DNA from: Neolewinella xylanilytica
GTDB taxonomy: Bacteria; Bacteroidota; Bacteroidia; Chitinophagales; Saprospiraceae
DNA length: 64,000 nt
Direction: 5' to 3'
Assembly (NCBI RefSeq): GCF_002934605.1
Contig: NZ_PTJC01000005.1
Coordinates: 1,612,001-1,676,000, forward strand
The notes beneath the pieces were generated by a model. The model was not told the DNA's origin. It saw only the letters and a list, made by a program, of their open reading frames with translations, and did no database searches. The position numbers and the translations under genes were made by a program. This document shows positions 35,474 through 49,242 of this stretch, in pieces. Each line of letters begins with the position of its first letter. Within the stretch, counting starts at the first letter, position 1.

Positions 35474-37027
35474 ATGTCCGACCAACACAAAGCCCAGCTA
35501 GAAGCCCAACTCTGGAACATTGCCAATACCCTGCGCGGCAAAATGAACGCGGACGACTTCCGCGACTACATCCTCGGCTTCATCTTCTACAAGTTCCTGT
35601 CTGAACAGCTGGAGAACTTCGTCAACGACAAGCTGCTGCAGGAGGCGGACGGCTTTCTCTACGACGGGCTGGACGAAAGCAATCCACAGTACGGTGACTA
35701 CCTGGAAGCCATCCGGGAAGCCTGCCTAGACGAACTAGGCTACTTCCTGCGCCCCGACGAACTCTTCCACAACATCGCGCAGCGTACCGATTTCATTCTC
35801 GAAGACCTCACCGCGATTCTGCGAAACATCGAGAGCTCGACGATGGGTACGGCGAGCGAGGACGACTTCGATAACCTATTCGAGGACCTCGACCTGACCA
35901 GCAGCAAACTCGGGCGGAGCGAGCAGGATAAGAACAAGCTAGTGAGCAAGGTGCTCAGCCACCTCGACAAGATCGACTTCGCCCTGGAGGATACCGACGC
36001 CGACGTTCTCGGTGATGCGTATGAGTATCTGATCGGCCAATTTGCCAGCGGGGCGGGCAAGAAGGCGGGTGAATTTTATACGCCGCAGGAAGTCAGTTCG
36101 GTCCTGGCCCGGCTGGTTACCACCGGAAAGCAGCGGTTGCGCTCTGTCTACGATCCCACTTGTGGATCCGGCTCACTGCTACTGCGGGTGCGGAAGGAGG
36201 TTGAAGACGTCGGTCACTTTTACGGACAGGAACAGAACCGTACCACCTACAACCTGGCCCGCATGAACATGATTATGCACCAGGTGAAGTACGACCGCTT
36301 CGACATCCGCAACGAGGATACGCTGGAACGCCCCCAGCACGTCGACGAGCGCTTCGAGGCGGTGGTGGCTAATCCGCCCTTCTCCGCTAAGTGGAGCGCC
36401 AACGACCTCTTCAACGGGGATGACCGCTTCAGCCCCTACGGTCGCCTGGCCCCGAAGAGTAAGGCCGACTTCGCTTTTGTGCAGCACATGATCCACCAGC
36501 TGGCCGAGAACGGACAGATGGCGGTGGTACTACCCCACGGGGCCCTCTTCCGTGGTGGCGCGGAGGCGCACATACGTCGTTTTCTGATCGCAGAGCGCAA
36601 CTACCTCGACGCCGTCATCGGCCTGCCCGCCAATATCTTCTACGGCACCAGCATCCCCACCTGCATCCTGGTCTTCAAAAAGTGCCGCGAGCAACCCGAC
36701 GACATCATCTTCATCGATGCCAGCGAGCACTACGACAAGGCCAAGAACCAGAACAAGCTCCGCCCGGAGGATATCGACCGCATCGTGACCACCTACCGCG
36801 AACGGACTACCCAAGAGAAGTACAGCCACGTAGCCCCCCTTACCGAGGTAGCCGAGAATGACTACAACCTCAACATTCCCCGCTACGTCGACACCTTCGA
36901 GGAGGAAGAACCCGTGGACCTGGCCGCGGTGAGTGCCGAGCTGCGCGAGCTTGACCGAGAACTGGGCGAAAATGAGAAAGTCATCGCGGGCTTTTGCCGG
37001 GAGTTGGGAATCGATCCGCCCTTCTAG
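35474..37027 (+). CDS. hsdM: Type I restriction-modification system, methyltransferase subunit
   Basis: 517 residues. The N-terminal helical HsdM domain (LWNIANTLRGKMNADDFRDYILGFIFYKFLSE, named by its ends) is followed by the N6-adenine methylase core. The AdoMet motif I is DPTCGSGSLL (from Asp227) and the catalytic motif IV is NPPF (300-303). The enzyme methylates adenine in the site chosen by HsdS and is also part of the restriction complex. Length normal. It opens the operon hsdM-hsdS-HEPN/TRD-DUF4272-hsdR. Confidence 0.96.
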   Translation: MSDQHKAQLEAQLWNIANTLRGKMNADDFRDYILGFIFYKFLSEQLENFVNDKLLQEADGFLYDGLDESNPQYGDYLEAIREACLDELGYFLRPDELFHNIAQRTDFILEDLTAILRNIESSTMGTASEDDFDNLFEDLDLTSSKLGRSEQDKNKLVSKVLSHLDKIDFALEDTDADVLGDAYEYLIGQFASGAGKKAGEFYTPQEVSSVLARLVTTGKQRLRSVYDPTCGSGSLLLRVRKEVEDVGHFYGQEQNRTTYNLARMNMIMHQVKYDRFDIRNEDTLERPQHVDERFEAVVANPPFSAKWSANDLFNGDDRFSPYGRLAPKSKADFAFVQHMIHQLAENGQMAVVLPHGALFRGGAEAHIRRFLIAERNYLDAVIGLPANIFYGTSIPTCILVFKKCREQPDDIIFIDASEHYDKAKNQNKLRPEDIDRIVTTYRERTTQEKYSHVAPLTEVAENDYNLNIPRYVDTFEEEEPVDLAAVSAELRELDRELGENEKVIAGFCRELGIDPPF

Positions 37028-37088: not shown

Positions 37089-38333
37089 ATGAAACAGGAT
37101 TTAGTGCCTTCGCTTCGGTTTAAAAGGTTTTCAGGGAAGTGGATAACCGAAAAGCTAGGAAAAGCAACCATTAAAGTCGGTAGTGGTAGCACACCAAAAG
37201 GCGGATCTTCCGTCTACGTTAACTCAGGTGTAATATTTATTCGGAGTCAGAATGTGAATAATGACTGCCTTGATACAGGTGATGTTGCCTTCATAACAGA
37301 AGCCACACACGAAGCGATGAGGGGAAGTACTGTGAAACCGGGTGATATTCTACTAAATATTACGGGAGCATCACTTGGACGCAGTTGTGTCGTTCCCCAA
37401 TATTTCAAAGAAGGCAATGTGAATCAGCACGTTTGTATTATTCGACTAAGGAGCAATTACTCAAACGAGTTTTATCAGGCATACCTCTCTTCGTTTAACG
37501 GACAGAAAAAGCTGTTTCGAAACCAAGCTGGAAGTGGGCGTGAAGGACTGAATTTTCAAGGAGTTCGTTCACTTAAGGTCGCAGTTCCCACCCTCCCCGA
37601 GCAACAAAAAATAGCCGCCTTCCTCACCGCGGTGGACGGGCGGCTGCGGGCGCTGCGGCGCAAGCGGGAGTTGCTGGAGGCGTATAAGCGGGGGGTGATG
37701 CAGCGGGTGTTTGGGGGAGACGCAAAAAAGGATGGCAACAATAGTGAATCCTCTATACCTCTTCGCACTGTAAAGTTTGGCAAGGTATTTGAGCGTGTGA
37801 AGCGCAAAAACAAAGACAACAATCAAAATATACTAACCATTTCAGCACAACAAGGACTGGTAAATCAACAAGACTACTTTAATAAGTCAGTTGCAGCAAA
37901 TAACGTCACCGGATATTATCTTTTAAAGCGCGGCGAGTTTGCCTACAATAAAAGTTATTCAAAAGGTTACCCTTACGGCGCTATAAAAAGGCTAAACGAG
38001 TACGACCAAGGTGTTTTATCAACCCTTTACATTTGCTTTAAGATCGCCGATGATCAGGTACTGCCAGAATTTATGGAGCAGTATTTTGAAGCTGGTGGTC
38101 TTAACCACGAAATAAGCAAGATTGCTCAAGAAGGCGCAAGAAATCACGGTCTCTTAAACGTGAGCGTTGTAGAATTCTTCAAGGATATCAATCTTTATCT
38201 TCCTCCTTTTCAAGAGCAAGGTCGTATAGCTACATTCCTTCGTTCTCTCGACAATCGTATCGCGTTAGTGGAGCGGCAGCTGGCGGGGGGTGAGGCGTTT
38301 AAGCGGGGGTTGTTGCAGCAGATGTTTGTGTGA
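37089..38333 (+). CDS. hsdS: Type I restriction-modification system, specificity subunit
   Basis: 414 residues. Two target recognition domains (about 8-170 and 215-375) alternate with conserved helical spacers that end in LEAYKRGVMQRVF near 205 and GEAFKRGLLQQMFV at the C-terminus. Each TRD ends with the typical PTLPEQQKIAAFL or PPFQEQGRIATFL segment. TRD coding DNA is visibly AT-rich while the spacers are GC-rich, as expected when TRDs are exchanged by recombination. It starts 61 bases after hsdM and overlaps the next gene. Confidence 0.95.
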   Translation: MKQDLVPSLRFKRFSGKWITEKLGKATIKVGSGSTPKGGSSVYVNSGVIFIRSQNVNNDCLDTGDVAFITEATHEAMRGSTVKPGDILLNITGASLGRSCVVPQYFKEGNVNQHVCIIRLRSNYSNEFYQAYLSSFNGQKKLFRNQAGSGREGLNFQGVRSLKVAVPTLPEQQKIAAFLTAVDGRLRALRRKRELLEAYKRGVMQRVFGGDAKKDGNNSESSIPLRTVKFGKVFERVKRKNKDNNQNILTISAQQGLVNQQDYFNKSVAANNVTGYYLLKRGEFAYNKSYSKGYPYGAIKRLNEYDQGVLSTLYICFKIADDQVLPEFMEQYFEAGGLNHEISKIAQEGARNHGLLNVSVVEFFKDINLYLPPFQEQGRIATFLRSLDNRIALVERQLAGGEAFKRGLLQQMFV

Positions 38334-39391
38334 TGAAAGCCGTCAGCCAGCAATTGTACGAGAGTGGCATAAACTTTATTGATCAGTCAATAGACGATTT
38401 TGCCGCTCGTCGTTATAAGTACTCAGTTCTGCATTTTGCTGCTGGTATAGAAGTTATACTTAAAGCACGCATAGTACACGAAGACTGGAGACTAATAGTC
38501 CATAGGAAAAAGCGGATGCAAGTCACAGAAAGTGGTTTTGCAAGCGGAGATTTTTATTCCATCAAACCGAGTGACTGTATTAAATGCTTACAAGATGAAC
38601 TCAAAATTGAGGTGCCAAAATGCGGGGCCAACTTTGACCTGATCAGTCAACTGAGAAATAAGGCAGTACATTTTATTCTGACGGACGAAGATGGGTCTAT
38701 TGAATTGCTACAGTATCACGCTTACAACGACCTTCGACGATTTATCAGGTCTAATCAATACGTTTTCAGAGGGCACCGAAATGATATTAAACGGCTTTTT
38801 CAAAAATTGGGAGATTTTGTAGGCACACGTTTTGAAAAACAAATTGAAGGCCTAAATGCGAGTTTGACACAAAGGCTGACCTATCTATCACGCCAACTAA
38901 AGCTAGAAGATCAATTTGAATTAGGGGTTTGGCAAAAGCTTTCAGTGGAATACCTTTTGAAGTCTAAAAGGTCACCATTATATAGAGTTGGAAAGATTGT
39001 CCGTTGTACTAAGGTTGACCTTCAACATAATAAGTATTCACTTACGATTAACCAGGATAGAAATGGATGGTCTGTATACGAAGGTCACGAGAAGTGTGCC
39101 AATCAGGGCATGGTAGTTTTATTCAAGGATGAGATATTATCCAAATTTTATCAATACGTATTAACCTTTAATAGCGCAAAATTTTACCATACTCACAAAC
39201 AAGGCTCGATGCTGCCGTTTGTAAGCCGCACAGACTTTGAGCAATTTTTGATTCCGTCACCTCCAACAGAAGTAATGAGAACCATAGTTGCTACAATGGA
39301 TGCATTCGCTAAGAGAAAGCAGTTATTGAAAGGTAAGCTCGATGCCTTGATTGAGTTCGACAAGGGCGTCAAACAGCAGAAATATATTTGA
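38333..39391 (+). CDS. HEPN domain fused to an HsdS-like half subunit
   Basis: 352 residues from the ATG at 38333, which shares its A with the hsdS stop (TGATG); a GTG at 38330 is the alternative. Residues 1-150 match the HEPN pattern: helices YKYSVLHFAAGIEVILKARI near 30-50, HEDWRLI, and the RNase-type motif RNKAVHF with Arg108 and His113 (R-x4-H). Residues about 190-352 look like one HsdS TRD with its spacer: QGSMLPFVSRTDFEQFLIPSP followed by the helix RTIVATMDAFAKRKQLLKGK and the ending EFDKGVKQQKYI. AT-rich throughout. This could be an RNase or toxin-like effector docked on the restriction complex through its TRD spacer. The role is inference; the two-part reading is well supported by eye. 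Confidence 0.75.
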   Translation: MKAVSQQLYESGINFIDQSIDDFAARRYKYSVLHFAAGIEVILKARIVHEDWRLIVHRKKRMQVTESGFASGDFYSIKPSDCIKCLQDELKIEVPKCGANFDLISQLRNKAVHFILTDEDGSIELLQYHAYNDLRRFIRSNQYVFRGHRNDIKRLFQKLGDFVGTRFEKQIEGLNASLTQRLTYLSRQLKLEDQFELGVWQKLSVEYLLKSKRSPLYRVGKIVRCTKVDLQHNKYSLTINQDRNGWSVYEGHEKCANQGMVVLFKDEILSKFYQYVLTFNSAKFYHTHKQGSMLPFVSRTDFEQFLIPSPPTEVMRTIVATMDAFAKRKQLLKGKLDALIEFDKGVKQQKYI

Positions 39392-39394
39392 CTG

Positions 39395-40330
39395 ATGGGC
39401 TGGCTACGCAATCTCCTCTCCGGTAACAGGAACGACGGGTTAATTATCCAATGCACCACCTGTGCGTGGGAGCCGGTCAAGTCTTCGCGGTGGCAGTGTT
39501 CGTGTAGGTTTGTATGGAATACCTTCGACACCAGTGGCCGCTGTCCCGCCTGCAACAAGCAGTGGGAAACTACCCAATGCCTAGGGTGCGGTACAAAATC
39601 GCCCCACGCGGAGTGGTATAAGACCCCGGAGCTCGTTGCCGCGCTCGAGCAGCAGGGTGATCCCATTCTTACCGCCCGCAAGAAGCGTCTGGAAAAGCGA
39701 TTGATTGGTCATGGCATCCGCGACTCCCGCTTTCGGGACCTACGGTATCTCAATTACGAGGGCGTGAAGTTCAAGTCGCCGCAGGAAATCGGTCGCCGCA
39801 TGCTAATCCTTTACGCTTTGTCGTGGATCAGTTTCGCGCCGGAAGACCGGTCCTGGGTGGAAGACCGGGTTCGAATCAGCGAACTCTGGAAGGACTTGTC
39901 CGCATGGGAACGCGAATATCTCGCGGATGAGAATCCCGGGGAAGAAGTACAAGCCGAAATTTCCTGGTGCATTGAAGGCGCGATCGTGCTGGCCTGGTGT
40001 GTAGGCTTGCTAGACGATCTGCCGCCCCTGGACGCCGACGGTGCCGACGCGATAGAGACGTTCCGCGAGCGGGTACCCGCCGTAGGAGGCTGTCCACCCT
40101 CCTTCTTGCAAACGCTCCGCCTGCGGGATAAGGGCGAGATATACGAGGAAAATCTTTTGAATGAAAAAGTTACGGCGTATTTCCGGGATCTACTTTTCAA
40201 CGGTGAGGCCGACAAAACGAACATCGACCGGGGAGTAAGCCTGGAACGGCACCGGGCTCTCAACTGGGTACGCAATGTAGGGGGAAACGGGACGGACGTG
40301 AGTTGGGAGCAGACGGATACTTCGACTTAA
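39395..40330 (+). CDS. Zinc-ribbon protein with DUF4272 domain
   Basis: 311 residues, starting 3 bases after the previous stop. The first ~70 residues hold four Cys pairs (CTTC, CSC, CPAC, CLGC), which look like two zinc ribbons. Residues about 90-305 fit DUF4272: IGRRMLILYALSW near 132, SWCIEGAIVLAWCVGLLDDLPPL near 190, and the ending SLERHRALNWVRN near 286. DUF4272 has no known function. The position between hsdS and hsdR makes it part of the restriction operon; GC content is higher than in the preceding gene. Confidence 0.75.
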   Translation: MGWLRNLLSGNRNDGLIIQCTTCAWEPVKSSRWQCSCRFVWNTFDTSGRCPACNKQWETTQCLGCGTKSPHAEWYKTPELVAALEQQGDPILTARKKRLEKRLIGHGIRDSRFRDLRYLNYEGVKFKSPQEIGRRMLILYALSWISFAPEDRSWVEDRVRISELWKDLSAWEREYLADENPGEEVQAEISWCIEGAIVLAWCVGLLDDLPPLDADGADAIETFRERVPAVGGCPPSFLQTLRLRDKGEIYEENLLNEKVTAYFRDLLFNGEADKTNIDRGVSLERHRALNWVRNVGGNGTDVSWEQTDTST

Positions 40331-40698: not shown

Positions 40699-43566
40699 AT
40701 GCCCCCACCTTCCAACACCACCACTCAGCCAGAGGCCGTTTTAGAGGAGCTTTTAGTTCAGCAATTGTCAACGCTGGGTTACGCCAAAGTTTACCTACCG
40801 GACGAAGCGGCGCTGTTCGCGAACCTGAAACAACAGTTGGAAAAGCACAATGACTTGGTGCTTTCCGAGCGAGAATTTCTGCGGGTTCTCAATCACCTGG
40901 ACAAGGGAAACGTATTCGACCGTTCCCGGACCCTACGCGACCACATGCAACTGGATCGCGACGACGGCACGGTAGCCTACCTACAGTTTCTGAACACCGA
41001 GCACTGGTGCCAGAATGAATACCAGGTAACGAATCAGATCAGCCAGGAGGGTAGGTACGCGAATCGATACGACGTTACCCTGCTGATCAACGGGCTGCCC
41101 CTTGTCCAGATCGAACTGAAGCGGCGGGGGATGGAGATGAAGGAGGCCTTCAACCAAATCAACCGCTACCAAAAACATAGCTTTCGGGCGGCACGGGGGC
41201 TGTTCCAGTACGTGCAAATCTTCGTGATCAGCAACGGAGTCAATACCAAGTACTACGCCAACAACCGCCGGCAGGAATTCAAACAGACGTTCTACTGGAC
41301 CGATGCGGACAACAAGCTGATCACGCGGCTGGAAGACTTCGCGGAGGCCTTTCTGGAGAAGTGCCACCTGTCCAAAATGATCTGTAAGTACATCGTGCAG
41401 CACAATACGCATAAGGTACTGATGGTGTTACGCCCGTATCAGTACTATGCCGTGGAGGCCATCATCGACCGGGTGAAGAACAGCCGCAAAAACGGCTACA
41501 TCTGGCATACTACCGGATCGGGTAAAACGCTGACCAGCTTCAAGGCAGCGCAGGTGCTTAAAAAGCTACCGGAGGTAGACAAGGTCGTTTTCGTAGTCGA
41601 CCGAAAAGACCTCGATTACCAGACGACGCGAGAATTCAACGAGTTCAGCAAGGGCAGCGTGGACGGTACCGAAAACACCTCGACGCTGGTGCGGCAATTC
41701 GCCGACGATACGGATCTGATCGTCACGACCATCCAGAAACTCAATACGGCGATTTCGGGGCGGCGGTACGAACAACGCATGACTCACCTGCGCGACAAGC
41801 GGGTTATCTTTATTTTCGACGAGTGCCACCGCAGCCAGTTCGGCGATACCCATCGGCGGATCGTGGACTTCTTCCGTGGGGCGCAGCTCTTTGGCTTCAC
41901 CGGTACGCCGATCTTCGCCGAGAATGCTTACTCGGGACCCGGTGGCAAGCAGACCACGGTGACACTCTTCGAGAAGTGTCTGCACAAGTACGTCATCACC
42001 AATGCGATCAAAGATGAGAACGTACTCAAGTTTAGCATTGAGTACGTAGGCCGCTATCGGAACAAGGAGAATGGTAACGACGTGAGCCTGGATATCGACG
42101 TTGAGGCCATCGATACCCGCGAATTGCTAGACGATGAGCGGCGGCTTAAGAAAATCGTCGACTGGATCATCGCCAACCACGGCCGTAAAACGCACGACCG
42201 GAAATTCACCGCAATTTTCGCGGTAAGCAGCGTAGATAACCTGATTCGCTACTACGACCTGTTCCGCGAACGGGACACTGCCGGGTTGCGAATCGCCACG
42301 ATCTTTAGCTACCGCGCGAACGAACCGGATAAGGCGGCCGACGGCATGATCGGGGAGCCGGATTTTGACGACGACGGACCGGCCGACTCCCACACCCGCG
42401 ACCGGTTAGAAGAATATATCGGCCACTACAACGAGCAGTACGGCACGGCCTTCACCACCCGCGATAGTGCCAAGTTCTACAGCTACTATAAAGACATCGG
42501 GAGGCGGATTAAGGACCGCGAGCGCGACAATGCGCTGGATAGGGACCGGGTGGATATTCTGCTAGTAGTAAATATGTTCCTTACCGGATTCGACGCCAAA
42601 TTGGTGAATACCCTGTATGTGGATAAAAACCTGCGCTACCACGGGCTGGTGCAGGCTTTCAGCCGTACGAACCGGATCATCGGGGAAGTAAAAAGTCAGG
42701 GCAACATCGTCAGTTTCCGAAACCTGAAGGGGGCAACCGACGAAGCCATTGCGCTATTTTCCAATCCGGAAGCGAAGGAGGAAATCCTGGTAGAGCCGTA
42801 CGAGGTATACATAGAGCGCTTTGACGAAGCCCTTAACGAACTGCTGGCCATTGCGCCAAATCCGGAGGCGGTCGATCGGCTGTATTCGGAGGAGGAGCAG
42901 CTGGCATTTGTGCAGGCCTTCCGAAAACTTATTCGGATCGACAACGTCCTTTCAGGATTCTCCAACTACACCGAGGATGAAGTAGCCATAGACAGCCAGA
43001 CCTTTGAGGACTTTAAAAGCAAGTATCTCGATATCCGCGATAAGGTCCGAAGCGACCACAGCGTCGAGAAGGTGAGCATTCTGAACGACGTGGACTTTGA
43101 GGTCGAGCTGATACACCGGGACCAGATCAACGTCAGCTACATCATACGTCTACTGGCGACCTTACACACGGCTACGAAGCCCGAAGAGCGCCAAGCCGCG
43201 CGCCAGGAGATCGACAACCGCTTATCGAACGAGGTGCAACTGCGCAGCAAACGCGAACTCATTGAGAAATTCATCGATCGAGAGCTACCCAAAGTGCGCA
43301 AGGACGCGGACATGGAGCAGGAATTCGAGAACTACATGAGCGGGGAAAAGCAGCGGGCAATCGTCGCTTTGGCGCAGGAGGAGAATCTTGAAGAGCGTGG
43401 GCTTCAGCAACTCATTAATTCCGCGGTGTACACCGGCCGGACCGCTTCCCAGGCCGACGTACAGGACATCATGCTGGTACCCCCACGTATCCTGAACAGG
43501 TCGACCATACTGAGTCGTATTCAATCGCGCCTGCAGCAATTGCTCGAGCAGTTTTACGACGACTAG
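40699..43566 (+). CDS. hsdR: Type I restriction-modification system, restriction subunit
   Basis: 955 residues. The N-terminal nuclease domain contains QIELKRRG with Glu139 and Lys141, the ExK part of the PD-ExK site. The SF2 motor follows: Walker A HTTGSGKTLT (Gly273 onward), DEAD-box equivalent DECHRSQFG (Asp374 onward), GFTGTPIF, and the second RecA half with LLVVNMFLTGFDAKLVNTLYVDK and QAFSRTNRI near 655. The C-terminal helices bind HsdM/S. It translocates and cuts DNA lacking the methyl mark. It is intact, so the system is probably active. Confidence 0.96.
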   Translation: MPPPSNTTTQPEAVLEELLVQQLSTLGYAKVYLPDEAALFANLKQQLEKHNDLVLSEREFLRVLNHLDKGNVFDRSRTLRDHMQLDRDDGTVAYLQFLNTEHWCQNEYQVTNQISQEGRYANRYDVTLLINGLPLVQIELKRRGMEMKEAFNQINRYQKHSFRAARGLFQYVQIFVISNGVNTKYYANNRRQEFKQTFYWTDADNKLITRLEDFAEAFLEKCHLSKMICKYIVQHNTHKVLMVLRPYQYYAVEAIIDRVKNSRKNGYIWHTTGSGKTLTSFKAAQVLKKLPEVDKVVFVVDRKDLDYQTTREFNEFSKGSVDGTENTSTLVRQFADDTDLIVTTIQKLNTAISGRRYEQRMTHLRDKRVIFIFDECHRSQFGDTHRRIVDFFRGAQLFGFTGTPIFAENAYSGPGGKQTTVTLFEKCLHKYVITNAIKDENVLKFSIEYVGRYRNKENGNDVSLDIDVEAIDTRELLDDERRLKKIVDWIIANHGRKTHDRKFTAIFAVSSVDNLIRYYDLFRERDTAGLRIATIFSYRANEPDKAADGMIGEPDFDDDGPADSHTRDRLEEYIGHYNEQYGTAFTTRDSAKFYSYYKDIGRRIKDRERDNALDRDRVDILLVVNMFLTGFDAKLVNTLYVDKNLRYHGLVQAFSRTNRIIGEVKSQGNIVSFRNLKGATDEAIALFSNPEAKEEILVEPYEVYIERFDEALNELLAIAPNPEAVDRLYSEEEQLAFVQAFRKLIRIDNVLSGFSNYTEDEVAIDSQTFEDFKSKYLDIRDKVRSDHSVEKVSILNDVDFEVELIHRDQINVSYIIRLLATLHTATKPEERQAARQEIDNRLSNEVQLRSKRELIEKFIDRELPKVRKDADMEQEFENYMSGEKQRAIVALAQEENLEERGLQQLINSAVYTGRTASQADVQDIMLVPPRILNRSTILSRIQSRLQQLLEQFYDD

Positions 43567-43806: not shown

Positions 43807-45621
43807 CTAAAGCATTTTGTAGTACTCATGAATTTTTTCGGACATCAATTTTCTTCGCTCCACTAGAAAGTCCTGGTACTGATCAATAGTAAGGTCGAAA
43901 ATGGACTCCGGAATACAGTTTTGGCGTAGATTTTCAATCAATTCTTGCCGATTATTTATGGCACCGTATCCAATAGTTCCACCGTCGATCTGATCCAAAA
44001 TTCGGCGGAAGTAGACTTCTGGGGACTGCGCTCCAATTTGAATGTTGATCTCCTGCTGCATGTAGACGTAGTTGGCGATTTGATTGTACTGACCTCGCTT
44101 GAGGCCTTCATTCGCCAAATACTTTCGGGGAAAGAGATGGTGGATATCTCCTCGGTGCATGATTAGATCGGCCACGGTGATGTCACGGGAAAGGAAGCCT
44201 TTATCCCTGGCCTTGACCTGACTGGCGAGAAACACCTGAAAGTAAGGGCTAGAGCGAACGGAACTGTCCATATGCTGCTCCGGAAGTGCTACTTCCCAGT
44301 ATCCCTCAGTCAGAGTAGCACTTTCTATAGACTGCAGGTATTCACCGAAGTCTACTCCGGCCATCCGCTTCAAGTCGTAGTCAAATTGGGATTCAAAAGA
44401 TCCTACCGCACGTCCGGTAAGGATGGTTAGGACAAACCACCTGCGTACGTAAGATTCAATTTTGGCCGCTTCCGTACCGTTCGTCCGCAGCGTGAGGTAC
44501 ACGAGATAGGCAAAATTGACGGCGTTGCTGGAGCGGATCATCGCCGGATCGATGAACCCGGCCGATCGAATGATCATGAGAAAACGCTTGAAGTTCGTTT
44601 CGTTCATGAACTTCATCACCCCATCCTTCAGCTTGTCAAACGAGCGCTCGGCGATTTCCTCTTCGAAGGTCCGGGTCTCGAAATTGCGTCCGCTTAGCAG
44701 GCTTACCAGGTCGGCCAGTTTTCCCCGATTAAATTCGGAACCGAATGAGACCCGCAGCATATCGGTATAGGAAGGATCGTAGAGGTCATCCTTCTCATCT
44801 TTGAGCCAGCTCATTTTGGCGAAATAATCGGTCTTCGCAAATTCTTTGTCATTATCCCGGACATACTCGTAGTATTCCGGTGCTACCGCAAGATGGCTGA
44901 AGTAATCAATGGCCTTGCGCAAGTCTTGTCCGCCGTACGTTTCGTTTGCGGCGATCTTGGACATAGCGAAATCCGCCTGGCTCAACTCCACTCCCTTTGA
45001 GTTAATCCGGATAAAAATTTCTGTAACCGTTTCGATATCCAGGTCAGGCGCTAGCTCAATTACCCCCACTGGCTTTTTCATCAGGTCGTAAAGCGCCGTG
45101 ATGGTCTGAATGACCGCCTGCTGATTGGCTTCAGGATTGCTGGTGAGGTAGCTACTGATCGCGGTAAAAGCATTGCCGTTGCCGACGAAGAGTTCTGAAA
45201 TATCCGGAATCCAAACTTTGTCTTTGCGGATTACGGGTGTTTGCACTTCAAATTTTCCTTCCTGGGGATTGAAAGCAATTTTGATGCGAATCCGCTTATA
45301 GGATTTGTTAACGACGTATTCACCATTGATGGCGGCTCGTAGGGCCGTGACGCGTTGCTGTCCGTCGATCAGGATCTTTTTTCCCGACGAAAGACTACCA
45401 TCTTTCAGCCGGACATCCGGATTTTTCCACACAATGATGTATCCAATCGGATAGCCGTTAAATAAGCTATCCATCAAATTGCGGACACCGGACCTGTCCC
45501 ACACAAACGGTCTTTGGATTTCTGGGATGGCAATTTCCCCTGACCGAACCCAAGCCAGTATGTTCTCGATGGGTTGCTGATTAACGTTGTATTTCTGCGT
45601 GAGAGAAGGTGATACAGTCAT
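43807..45621 (-). CDS. DUF262/GmrSD-type nuclease-like protein with HNH-like end
   Basis: 604 residues. The N-terminal DUF262 (ParB/Srx-like) domain has EIQRPFVWD near 34, GYPIGYIIVW near 57 and the DGQQR motif at 86-90. A long helical middle follows. The C-terminal part has GDIHHLFPRKYL near 503 followed by QIANYVYMQ, resembling the DUF1524 HNH site of GmrSD type IV restriction enzymes. Family members cut modified DNA or act in phage defence. It converges on hsdR. Whether it is a nuclease here is inference from motifs. Confidence 0.88.
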   Translation of the reverse strand: MTVSPSLTQKYNVNQQPIENILAWVRSGEIAIPEIQRPFVWDRSGVRNLMDSLFNGYPIGYIIVWKNPDVRLKDGSLSSGKKILIDGQQRVTALRAAINGEYVVNKSYKRIRIKIAFNPQEGKFEVQTPVIRKDKVWIPDISELFVGNGNAFTAISSYLTSNPEANQQAVIQTITALYDLMKKPVGVIELAPDLDIETVTEIFIRINSKGVELSQADFAMSKIAANETYGGQDLRKAIDYFSHLAVAPEYYEYVRDNDKEFAKTDYFAKMSWLKDEKDDLYDPSYTDMLRVSFGSEFNRGKLADLVSLLSGRNFETRTFEEEIAERSFDKLKDGVMKFMNETNFKRFLMIIRSAGFIDPAMIRSSNAVNFAYLVYLTLRTNGTEAAKIESYVRRWFVLTILTGRAVGSFESQFDYDLKRMAGVDFGEYLQSIESATLTEGYWEVALPEQHMDSSVRSSPYFQVFLASQVKARDKGFLSRDITVADLIMHRGDIHHLFPRKYLANEGLKRGQYNQIANYVYMQQEINIQIGAQSPEVYFRRILDQIDGGTIGYGAINNRQELIENLRQNCIPESIFDLTIDQYQDFLVERRKLMSEKIHEYYKML

Positions 45622-48476: not shown

Positions 48477-48529
48477 AGACAGGCAACCCTCGGTAGGGAT
48501 TTTTGCGTTTTCATTCTAAAGCTTGGACT

Positions 48530-48769
48530 ATGGCCTTAATCATACCAGATGCAGTGCTACAAAAGGCACAGCTGTCGGGTGAGGATCTGCTAACGGATCT
48601 AGCCTGTTACATGTACGATAAGGGACGGCTAAGCTTTGGAAAAGCCAGTGAACTAAGTGGATTAAACTATCTGCAATTTCAAAAAGCCCTGGCTGAAAGG
48701 GAGATTGATATTAAATATTCAGAACAGGACCTAGATACGGATTTGAAGAATCTAGGGATCACACTATGA
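48530..48769 (+). CDS. UPF0175-family antitoxin
   Basis: 79 residues from the ATG at 48530. It has the UPF0175 layout: short N-terminal strand, the helix LLTDLACYMYDKGRLSFGKASELSGL near 18-43 (named by its ends) with the DNA-binding helix-turn-helix, and the tail KYSEQDLDTDLKNLG. UPF0175 proteins are antitoxins of DUF3368/PIN-type toxins. It overlaps the next gene by ATGA, so both are co-translated; it probably represses its own promoter. Confidence 0.9.
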   Translation: MALIIPDAVLQKAQLSGEDLLTDLACYMYDKGRLSFGKASELSGLNYLQFQKALAEREIDIKYSEQDLDTDLKNLGITL

Positions 48770-49242
48770 TCGTTGTAAGTGACACTTCGACCATCACCAA
48801 CCTGCATCAAATTGATCGCCTCGATGTATTGCGGTCCCTTTACGGCACGATTATAATTCCTCCTGCGGTCAGGCGAGAACTTTACCGGATCGAAGGTCAA
48901 CAGGGGGCGATAGAACAGTCTGACTGGATACGAACAGAATATCCGAAGGATCAGACCCTGATTACAGAACTCTTAGAGGAACTGGACTTAGGTGAATCCG
49001 AGGCTATAGCATTGGCGATAGAACTAAATGCTGACTATTTGGTCATCGATGAATACAAAGGCCGAGCAATTGCCGAAAAGAAAGGGGTGAAAATTGTAGG
49101 ACTGTTAGGTGTATTAATCGCTGCGAAGAGAAATGGCCACCTCGAAGCAATTAAGCCACTAATTGAAAGGATTCAGCACAACGGCTTTCGATTGAATAGT
49201 AGCCTGATCCTTAAAGTTCTTACCGCTCTGGGAGAAGAATAA
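48766..49242 (+). CDS. DUF3368/PIN-like toxin
   Basis: 158 residues. The PIN-domain acids are in place: SDTSTITNL (Asp6) at the start, IPPAVRREL (Glu near 39), the LGESEAIALA segment (Glu near 76), and DYLVIDEYKGR with Asp93 and Glu94. This is the metal-dependent RNase site of PIN/VapC relatives. With the UPF0175 gene it forms a toxin-antitoxin pair. Both look intact. Confidence 0.9.
   Translation: MIVVSDTSTITNLHQIDRLDVLRSLYGTIIIPPAVRRELYRIEGQQGAIEQSDWIRTEYPKDQTLITELLEELDLGESEAIALAIELNADYLVIDEYKGRAIAEKKGVKIVGLLGVLIAAKRNGHLEAIKPLIERIQHNGFRLNSSLILKVLTALGEE

Follow-up and report, generated by a model that had tools for sequence, protein, structure and literature searches.

The window, a stretch of 64,000 nucleotides from Neolewinella xylanilytica, holds a type I restriction-modification operon containing a gene that joins a HEPN domain to one half of an HsdS specificity subunit. 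The gene order is hsdM, hsdS, the fusion gene, a gene encoding a zinc-ribbon-like N-terminus with DUF4272, and hsdR:

35474..37027, forward strand: hsdM (TIGR00497, 4.6e-135; N6_Mtase, 1.6e-111)
37089..38333, forward strand: hsdS, with two target recognition domains (TRDs) and two spacers (Methylase_S, 2.1e-19, in two stretches; PADLOC Specificity_I, 3.8e-102)
38333..39391, forward strand: HEPN–half-HsdS fusion gene, 352 aa, TGATG overlap with hsdS, low GC throughout
38333..38827, forward strand: HEPN domain of the DUF3644/HEC-08 kind, residues 1–165 (profile matches, motifs, model, fold matches)
38828..38917, forward strand: helical linker, residues 166–195 (model helix 142–210, confidence falling)
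38918..39250, forward strand: shortened HsdS TRD, residues 196–306 (Methylase_S match; alignment to 24 HsdS halves)
39251..39388, forward strand: HsdS spacer helix and C-terminal tail (F.KG..QQ), residues 307–352 (alignment, permutations, model helix)
39395..40330, forward strand: gene for a zinc-ribbon-like N-terminus and DUF4272 (8.3e-31, residues 95–306)
40699..43566, forward strand: hsdR, type IC (EcoR124_C, 1.2e-63; HSDR_N, 3.9e-41; PADLOC REase_I, E 0)

According to Pfam, HsdM contains N6_Mtase and HsdM_N domains, and HsdR consists of an HSDR_N nuclease domain, an ATPase motor and an EcoR124_C domain. The operon was assigned to type IC because of the latter domain and, judged from its sequence, looks intact. 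The fusion gene is a single open frame of 352 codons from the ATG at 38333 to the TGA at 39389–39391. Its start codon (38333–38335) shares the A with the hsdS stop codon (TGA, 38331–38333), which bears out the TGATG coupling (38331–38335) proposed in a sequence-only reading of this DNA. The DUF4272 gene, the second accessory gene of the slot between hsdS and hsdR, begins 3 bases past the stop of the fusion gene. Its N-terminus is rich in cysteines, and the first 75 residues have a relative in one plasmid record (45%, E 1e-10). Downstream, a GmrSD_N/DUF262-type gene (43807–45621, reverse strand; PADLOC HEC-05, 8e-31) adjoins hsdR on the opposite strand, and the region therefore looks like a defence island. 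Two overlapping small genes at 48503–49242 resemble, by eye only, a toxin-antitoxin pair whose second protein is PIN-like.

The GC content of the fusion gene is 0.36–0.41 along its whole length, versus 0.586 for hsdM and 0.544 for hsdR. That it is even over both parts suggests that the gene arrived as one unit, and is more in keeping with acquisition of the complete gene than with a recent breakage of the local hsdS. The TRDs of the resident hsdS have a similar GC content (0.43 and 0.40), so that the GC values by themselves are still compatible with an origin from hsdS. A recent copy of the tail from the resident hsdS was rejected, as its spacer is 21% identical to the second resident spacer and has a GC content of 0.413 versus 0.667 and 0.518 for the resident spacers. 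At 97.86% completeness, the assembly comprises 13 contigs, and because the whole window sits in one of 2.4 Mb, the fusion is unlikely to originate from an artefactual joining of contigs.

The HEPN domain and the half-HsdS tail

The N-terminal part of the fusion protein is a HEPN domain of the DUF3644/HEC-08 kind. It is matched by the PADLOC profiles HEC-08 (1.6e-25, residues 6–148) and DUF3644 (2.4e-23), by phrog_37794 (1.2e-17) and by the Pfam DUF3644 model (3.1e-5; 24.1 bits, below the cut-off of 27.6), and PF12358 is assigned to the protein in the precomputed list of the protein database. The signature given for the HEPN superfamily in PMC3710099, R-x4-6-H accompanied in many families by E-x3-[KR], is present in full as R108-N109-x3-H113 (RNKAVHF, an R-x4-H motif) and E40-x3-K44. 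When the protein was aligned with 79 relatives chosen without regard to the motif, residues E40, K44, W52, G72, R108, N109 and F114 were invariant in all 80 sequences and H113 was kept in 79. The relative in which a glutamine replaces the motif histidine (L036:5302–6441) is a HEPN-zinc-ribbon protein and, from this substitution, possibly a non-catalytic version.

In the model of the full-length protein, the pLDDT block means are 86–98 up to residue 160, and the predicted structure has the all-helical HEPN fold. The best fold matches of the HEPN part are HEPN structures, although Foldseek returned no match at E 0.001 or better for the HEPN-part model or for the C-terminal model. The R-x4-H motif (Arg108/His113) in a helical N-terminus, from which the sequence-only reading had deduced a HEPN domain, thus proved to be correctly interpreted by profile and, in addition, by fold; the N-terminal part is not a plain TRD devoid of a HEPN fold.

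The C-terminal part matches Pfam Methylase_S over residues 231–338 (8.1e-8; 33.1 bits, cut-off 22). Three solved HsdS chains match the fusion protein by sequence with E-values of 1.6e-6 to 4.1e-6, and the C-terminal part alone matches solved HsdS chains with 6.9e-8 to 7.2e-7. The two HsdS spacer profiles match the 47-residue spacer with 25.5 and 16.9 bits, and none of 2000 permutations reached either score. In an alignment of TRDs and spacers comprising 24 HsdS halves, the spacer helix aligns without gap to its last residue; it is of full length, carries the conserved tail and ends as an HsdS C-terminus does. Compared with the solved HsdS (1YF2, 1YDX, 5YBB, and 7BST of EcoR124I), the fusion protein has one half only, placed behind a HEPN domain. 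By eye in the alignment, its TRD is about 35–40 residues shorter than those of these and other normal HsdS halves, at the N-terminal side; the usual start LRF..W is absent and the conserved E-Q of the hinge is gone. The description of the C-terminus as one HsdS TRD with its spacer consequently holds for an HsdS half with a full-length spacer and fails for a complete TRD. Because of the shortening and the loss of the hinge E-Q, the tail may bind HsdM or HsdS weakly or not at all.

Since the TRD is not confidently predicted in the full-length model (pLDDT below 50 for residues 214–310), the C-terminal part was modelled separately. This model has a mean pLDDT of 65 and contains a helix (127–166) with a block pLDDT of 87–97. 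Because the alignment behind it consists of HsdS rows, its fold match cannot count as evidence separate from the sequences. Separate modelling of the two parts, which had been recommended at the outset, therefore gave a confident HEPN part with HEPN structures as best matches and a less certain C-terminal part, which aligns with HsdS TRD and spacer in the profiles, the alignment and the fold comparison. Sequence profiles and the fold comparison of the two parts support the presence of a HEPN domain and one HsdS half in a single protein of a type I operon.

The tail, too, lacks close relatives: searches with it returned three weak matches among 298 relatives, besides its own genome. Its closest relatives on plasmids are three HsdS matches with 28–38% identity, and no viral relative was found. 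Esub1 (8VSR, 8VSQ) is a fold neighbour of the C-terminal model, and no relevant paper on it was found. A relation to the HepS chains 9OIJ and 9OIK was not retained, with E-values of just 0.14–0.23; no paper on either was found.

Relatives of the HEPN domain

The HEC-08/DUF3644 proteins (PADLOC PDLC04162) have the same HEPN domain, with 26–34% identity to the N-terminal part of the fusion protein in 18 relatives, and are mostly of similar length (about 350 residues). They end in zinc ribbons, usually with six to nine CxxC motifs, whereas the fusion protein ends in half an HsdS and has no CxxC after the HEPN motif. From a contig scan of 98 relatives, 80 genomic loci (L029–L108) were kept. At least six CxxC follow the HEPN motif in 76 of them, the exceptions being L041 (one), L051 (four, cut by the contig end), L091 (three) and L098 (broken). 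Eight were counted in all five viral loci, and six to eight in 16 of 17 plasmid genes, the other coding for a short protein with three. At least three CxxC are present in 108 of the 120 proteins listed (the best 120 of 136 profile matches); apart from the fusion protein, the other 11 are short or incomplete, with 108–278 residues. Pfam zinc-ribbon models were found in many of 79 genomic relatives (L098 left out), and Methylase_S in none of them at E 0.01.

With zinc ribbons in the relatives and Methylase_S in the fusion protein, the sequences indicate that, in the lineage of the fusion protein, a known toxin family had its C-terminal module exchanged for half of an HsdS. The linker (residues 166–195) coincides with the stretch where the HEPN relatives pass into their zinc ribbons. 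This exchange in a defined HEPN family that normally carries zinc ribbons is the main point, and it goes beyond the sequence-only reading. The HEPN part also differs in one detail: the spacing between the GxFxS and RN motifs, which could be measured in 113 of the 120 proteins (seven lacked one motif), is 32 residues in 112 and 31 in the fusion protein alone. The zinc-ribbon-like part of the neighbouring gene (39395–40330) was considered as the lost C-terminus of the toxin, which was unsupported (best match E 0.25).

A second instance of the fusion was sought widely, including beside other hsd loci. Whether the query was the whole protein or residues 1–165, protein searches returned the fusion protein itself only; it is also the only one with PF01420 among the best 120 of 136 profile matches. 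None of 196 plasmid records covered 80% of the protein, and phages gave no match. The full protein was found in its own genome only among 198 whole genomes. The HEC-08 profile matched 5 of 395 genomes of the phylum, with the fusion in its own genome only, and 1 of 396 genomes of the order, again its own. The fusion is thus a singleton within the databases searched, the word-based and pattern-based searches used being of a kind that misses distant relatives and leaves room for fusions elsewhere. No report of a HEPN-HsdS fusion was found in the open-access literature, to which the search was confined (subscription papers and preprints lie outside this coverage). The term HEC is absent from the main text of the PADLOC paper (PMC8565338).

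The slot between hsdS and hsdR

A search of 198 genomes for HsdR relatives gave matches at E 1e-100 or less in 38 of them (45 rows). The closest rows, minus that of the fusion genome and one cut by the contig, provided 16 hsdR regions for comparison. Homologues of hsdM and hsdS lie upstream of hsdR in 12 of them. As for the remaining four, L155 and L159 end near hsdR, L165 has no nearby hsdM or hsdS, and L156 has hsdM without a recognised hsdS.

The content of the slot was determined with Pfam on ten of 27 proteins from these regions. An accessory protein was recognised between hsdS and hsdR in seven of the 12 operons: AAA_21 with DUF4276 in L151 (HsdR 84% identical) and in L152 (HsdR 79% identical; DUF4276 at 29.1 bits, just below the cut-off of 30.2), AAA_21 in L157, RloB in L154, Abi_C in L161, Fic in L166, and PDDEXK_3 in L160, where hsdS is split. 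For the other five, the Pfam scan of those ten proteins revealed no defence-type gene in the slot: that of L164 resembles RloA/RloB by eye only, L153 and L162 contain other small genes outside the ten, and in L158 and L163 the place is free of such genes. The content of the slot therefore varies between close relatives and often consists of defence-type genes. A similar occupation by defence genes is described for the rlo inserts and PrrC in PMC2610378. The RloB, AAA_21 + DUF4276, Abi_C and Fic genes sit, like the fusion gene, as accessory genes in the hsdS–hsdR slot of orthologous operons; unlike it, they code for separate proteins with no HsdS-derived part seen. No HEPN match to the fusion protein and no relative of the DUF4272 gene was seen in the 16 regions. 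The AAA_21 ATPase and DUF4276-type protein, found in relatives of the same genus (L151:6801–8506 and L152:7549–9559, loci oriented to bring hsdR onto the forward strand), possibly form a two-gene accessory defence module, as far as their sequences tell.

A proposed latent RNase held by the restriction enzyme

The genes of EcoprrI are in the order hsdM-hsdS-prrC-hsdR. According to the literature, every PrrC orthologue is linked to a type Ic system, which silences PrrC (PMC2610378; PMC3874165); in the account given in PMC3874165, PrrC is sequestered in the type IC enzyme and freed upon action of the phage peptide Stp. The same source describes type IC half-S proteins (EcoDXXI, NgoAV) that dimerise, work in trans and can replace a full S subunit. 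The fusion gene resembles prrC in that the gene of a HEPN-type RNase lies inside a type IC hsd operon (PMC3874165, PMC2610378, PMC3710099) and, in the logic proposed below, in that the toxin would be held by the restriction complex. PrrC has an N-terminal ABC ATPase and a HEPN domain of another family, whereas Pfam and NCBIfam matched no ATPase domain in the fusion protein, in which the HEPN domain is N-terminal and the half-HsdS tail would be the tether. This also distinguishes it from RloC, with its Rad50-like ATPase and zinc hook. The fusion partners listed for R-M-linked HEPN domains in PMC3710099 are only nucleases, helicases and other ATPase subunits, and its table describes the EC042_2821 group, which overlaps DUF3644, as 'fused to wHTH, REase and ZnR'. 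The S subunit does not figure in that partner list, and a HEPN fusion to half a specificity subunit is outside it.

The sequestration of PrrC, the dimerisation of type IC half-S proteins and the anatomy of the fusion protein together point to a latent RNase docked through a half-S arm. The preferred reading, to which a probability of about 0.5 is given, is that the fusion protein is attached to the type IC restriction-modification enzyme as a latent RNase and freed when the complex is disturbed; its activity, docking, silencing and trigger are all predicted, so that the docking and release put forward in the sequence-only reading stay a hypothesis. HEPN enzymes cleave RNA as dimers, and the HEPN domain would be an effector acting in this way. 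The tail would mimic one arm of the specificity subunit and dock on HsdM, on the HsdS coiled coil, or on both. As long as the restriction complex is intact, the RNase would be kept inactive or apart. Disturbance of the complex by a phage anti-restriction protein, DNA damage or the loss of a subunit would allow HEPN domains to pair and cut cellular RNA, and the infected cell would be stopped. Features consistent with this proposal are the intact HEPN signature, the full-length dimerisation helix with its tail, the coupling within the operon and the presence of accessory genes in the slot. As the searches yielded a single copy of the fusion, the architecture may not be under selection. A sharper form of the idea is tentative: the toxin would pose as a specificity subunit, seated in the HsdM/HsdS assembly by its genuine half-HsdS arm. 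The assembly state of the complex would itself serve as antitoxin, and the RNase would be fired by whatever anti-restriction protein breaks up or occupies it.

Alternatively, a DNA sequence or its methylation might be read by the tail, either on its own, dimerised or together with HsdM, with DNA binding instead of loss of the complex activating the RNase; in the sister proteins, sensing would then likewise fall to the zinc ribbons. TRDs are DNA-recognition modules, and the C-terminal module is the part by which the protein differs from its family, as expected for a swapped sensor, but the shortening of this TRD at its N-terminal side and the tight operon coupling, which favours a role with HsdM and HsdS, make such direct sensing rather unlikely. 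The state of the TRD also bears on the proposal that the half-HsdS would join HsdM to provide a second, possibly palindromic specificity, with the HEPN domain as a passenger or dimerisation aid. Type IC half-S proteins are functional as homodimers (PMC3874165); a passenger, however, would not need all the HEPN motif residues that are kept, and with the TRD start LRF..W missing, this role is very improbable.

The protein could also be a chance or decaying fusion with no selected joint function, produced when a HEC-08-like gene recombined with a remnant of hsdS and its zinc ribbons were lost. The shortened TRD, the singleton status in all searches and the deviant spacing of 31 residues are in favour. 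Against such decay, the frame is open, all HEPN motif residues are present, the spacer helix is ungapped to the last residue, the GC content is even over both parts, and the gene is tightly coupled on both sides within an otherwise intact-looking operon; a fusion of this kind is thus unlikely. The toxin posing as a specificity subunit, if real, would represent a new way to guard an immune complex, in which the zinc-ribbon module of a widespread toxin family has been replaced by a part of the guarded machine. The fusion identifies where on a restriction enzyme an RNase might be tethered, and the guard idea derived from PrrC becomes testable with two defined modules. Being the part that was exchanged, the zinc ribbons are likely the sensor of the widespread HEC-08 proteins.

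Some genomic settings of the zinc-ribbon relatives can be mentioned. Three HEPN-zinc-ribbon proteins from enterobacterial plasmids (L003:5944–7026, L004:3308–4351 and L014:3950–4960) are annotated 'hsdR' or 'HsdR'; Pfam found no HsdR domain in those of L003 and L004. A recurrent plasmid cassette in L003, L004 and L021 consists of a tyrosine recombinase, the HEPN-zinc-ribbon gene and then a HEPN/Toprim-associated gene. In Novosphingobium (L037:31–5806), a HEPN-zinc-ribbon gene stands in a row with an HsdM relative (44%) and with genes that by eye resemble a PLD-type nuclease and an AbiE pair.
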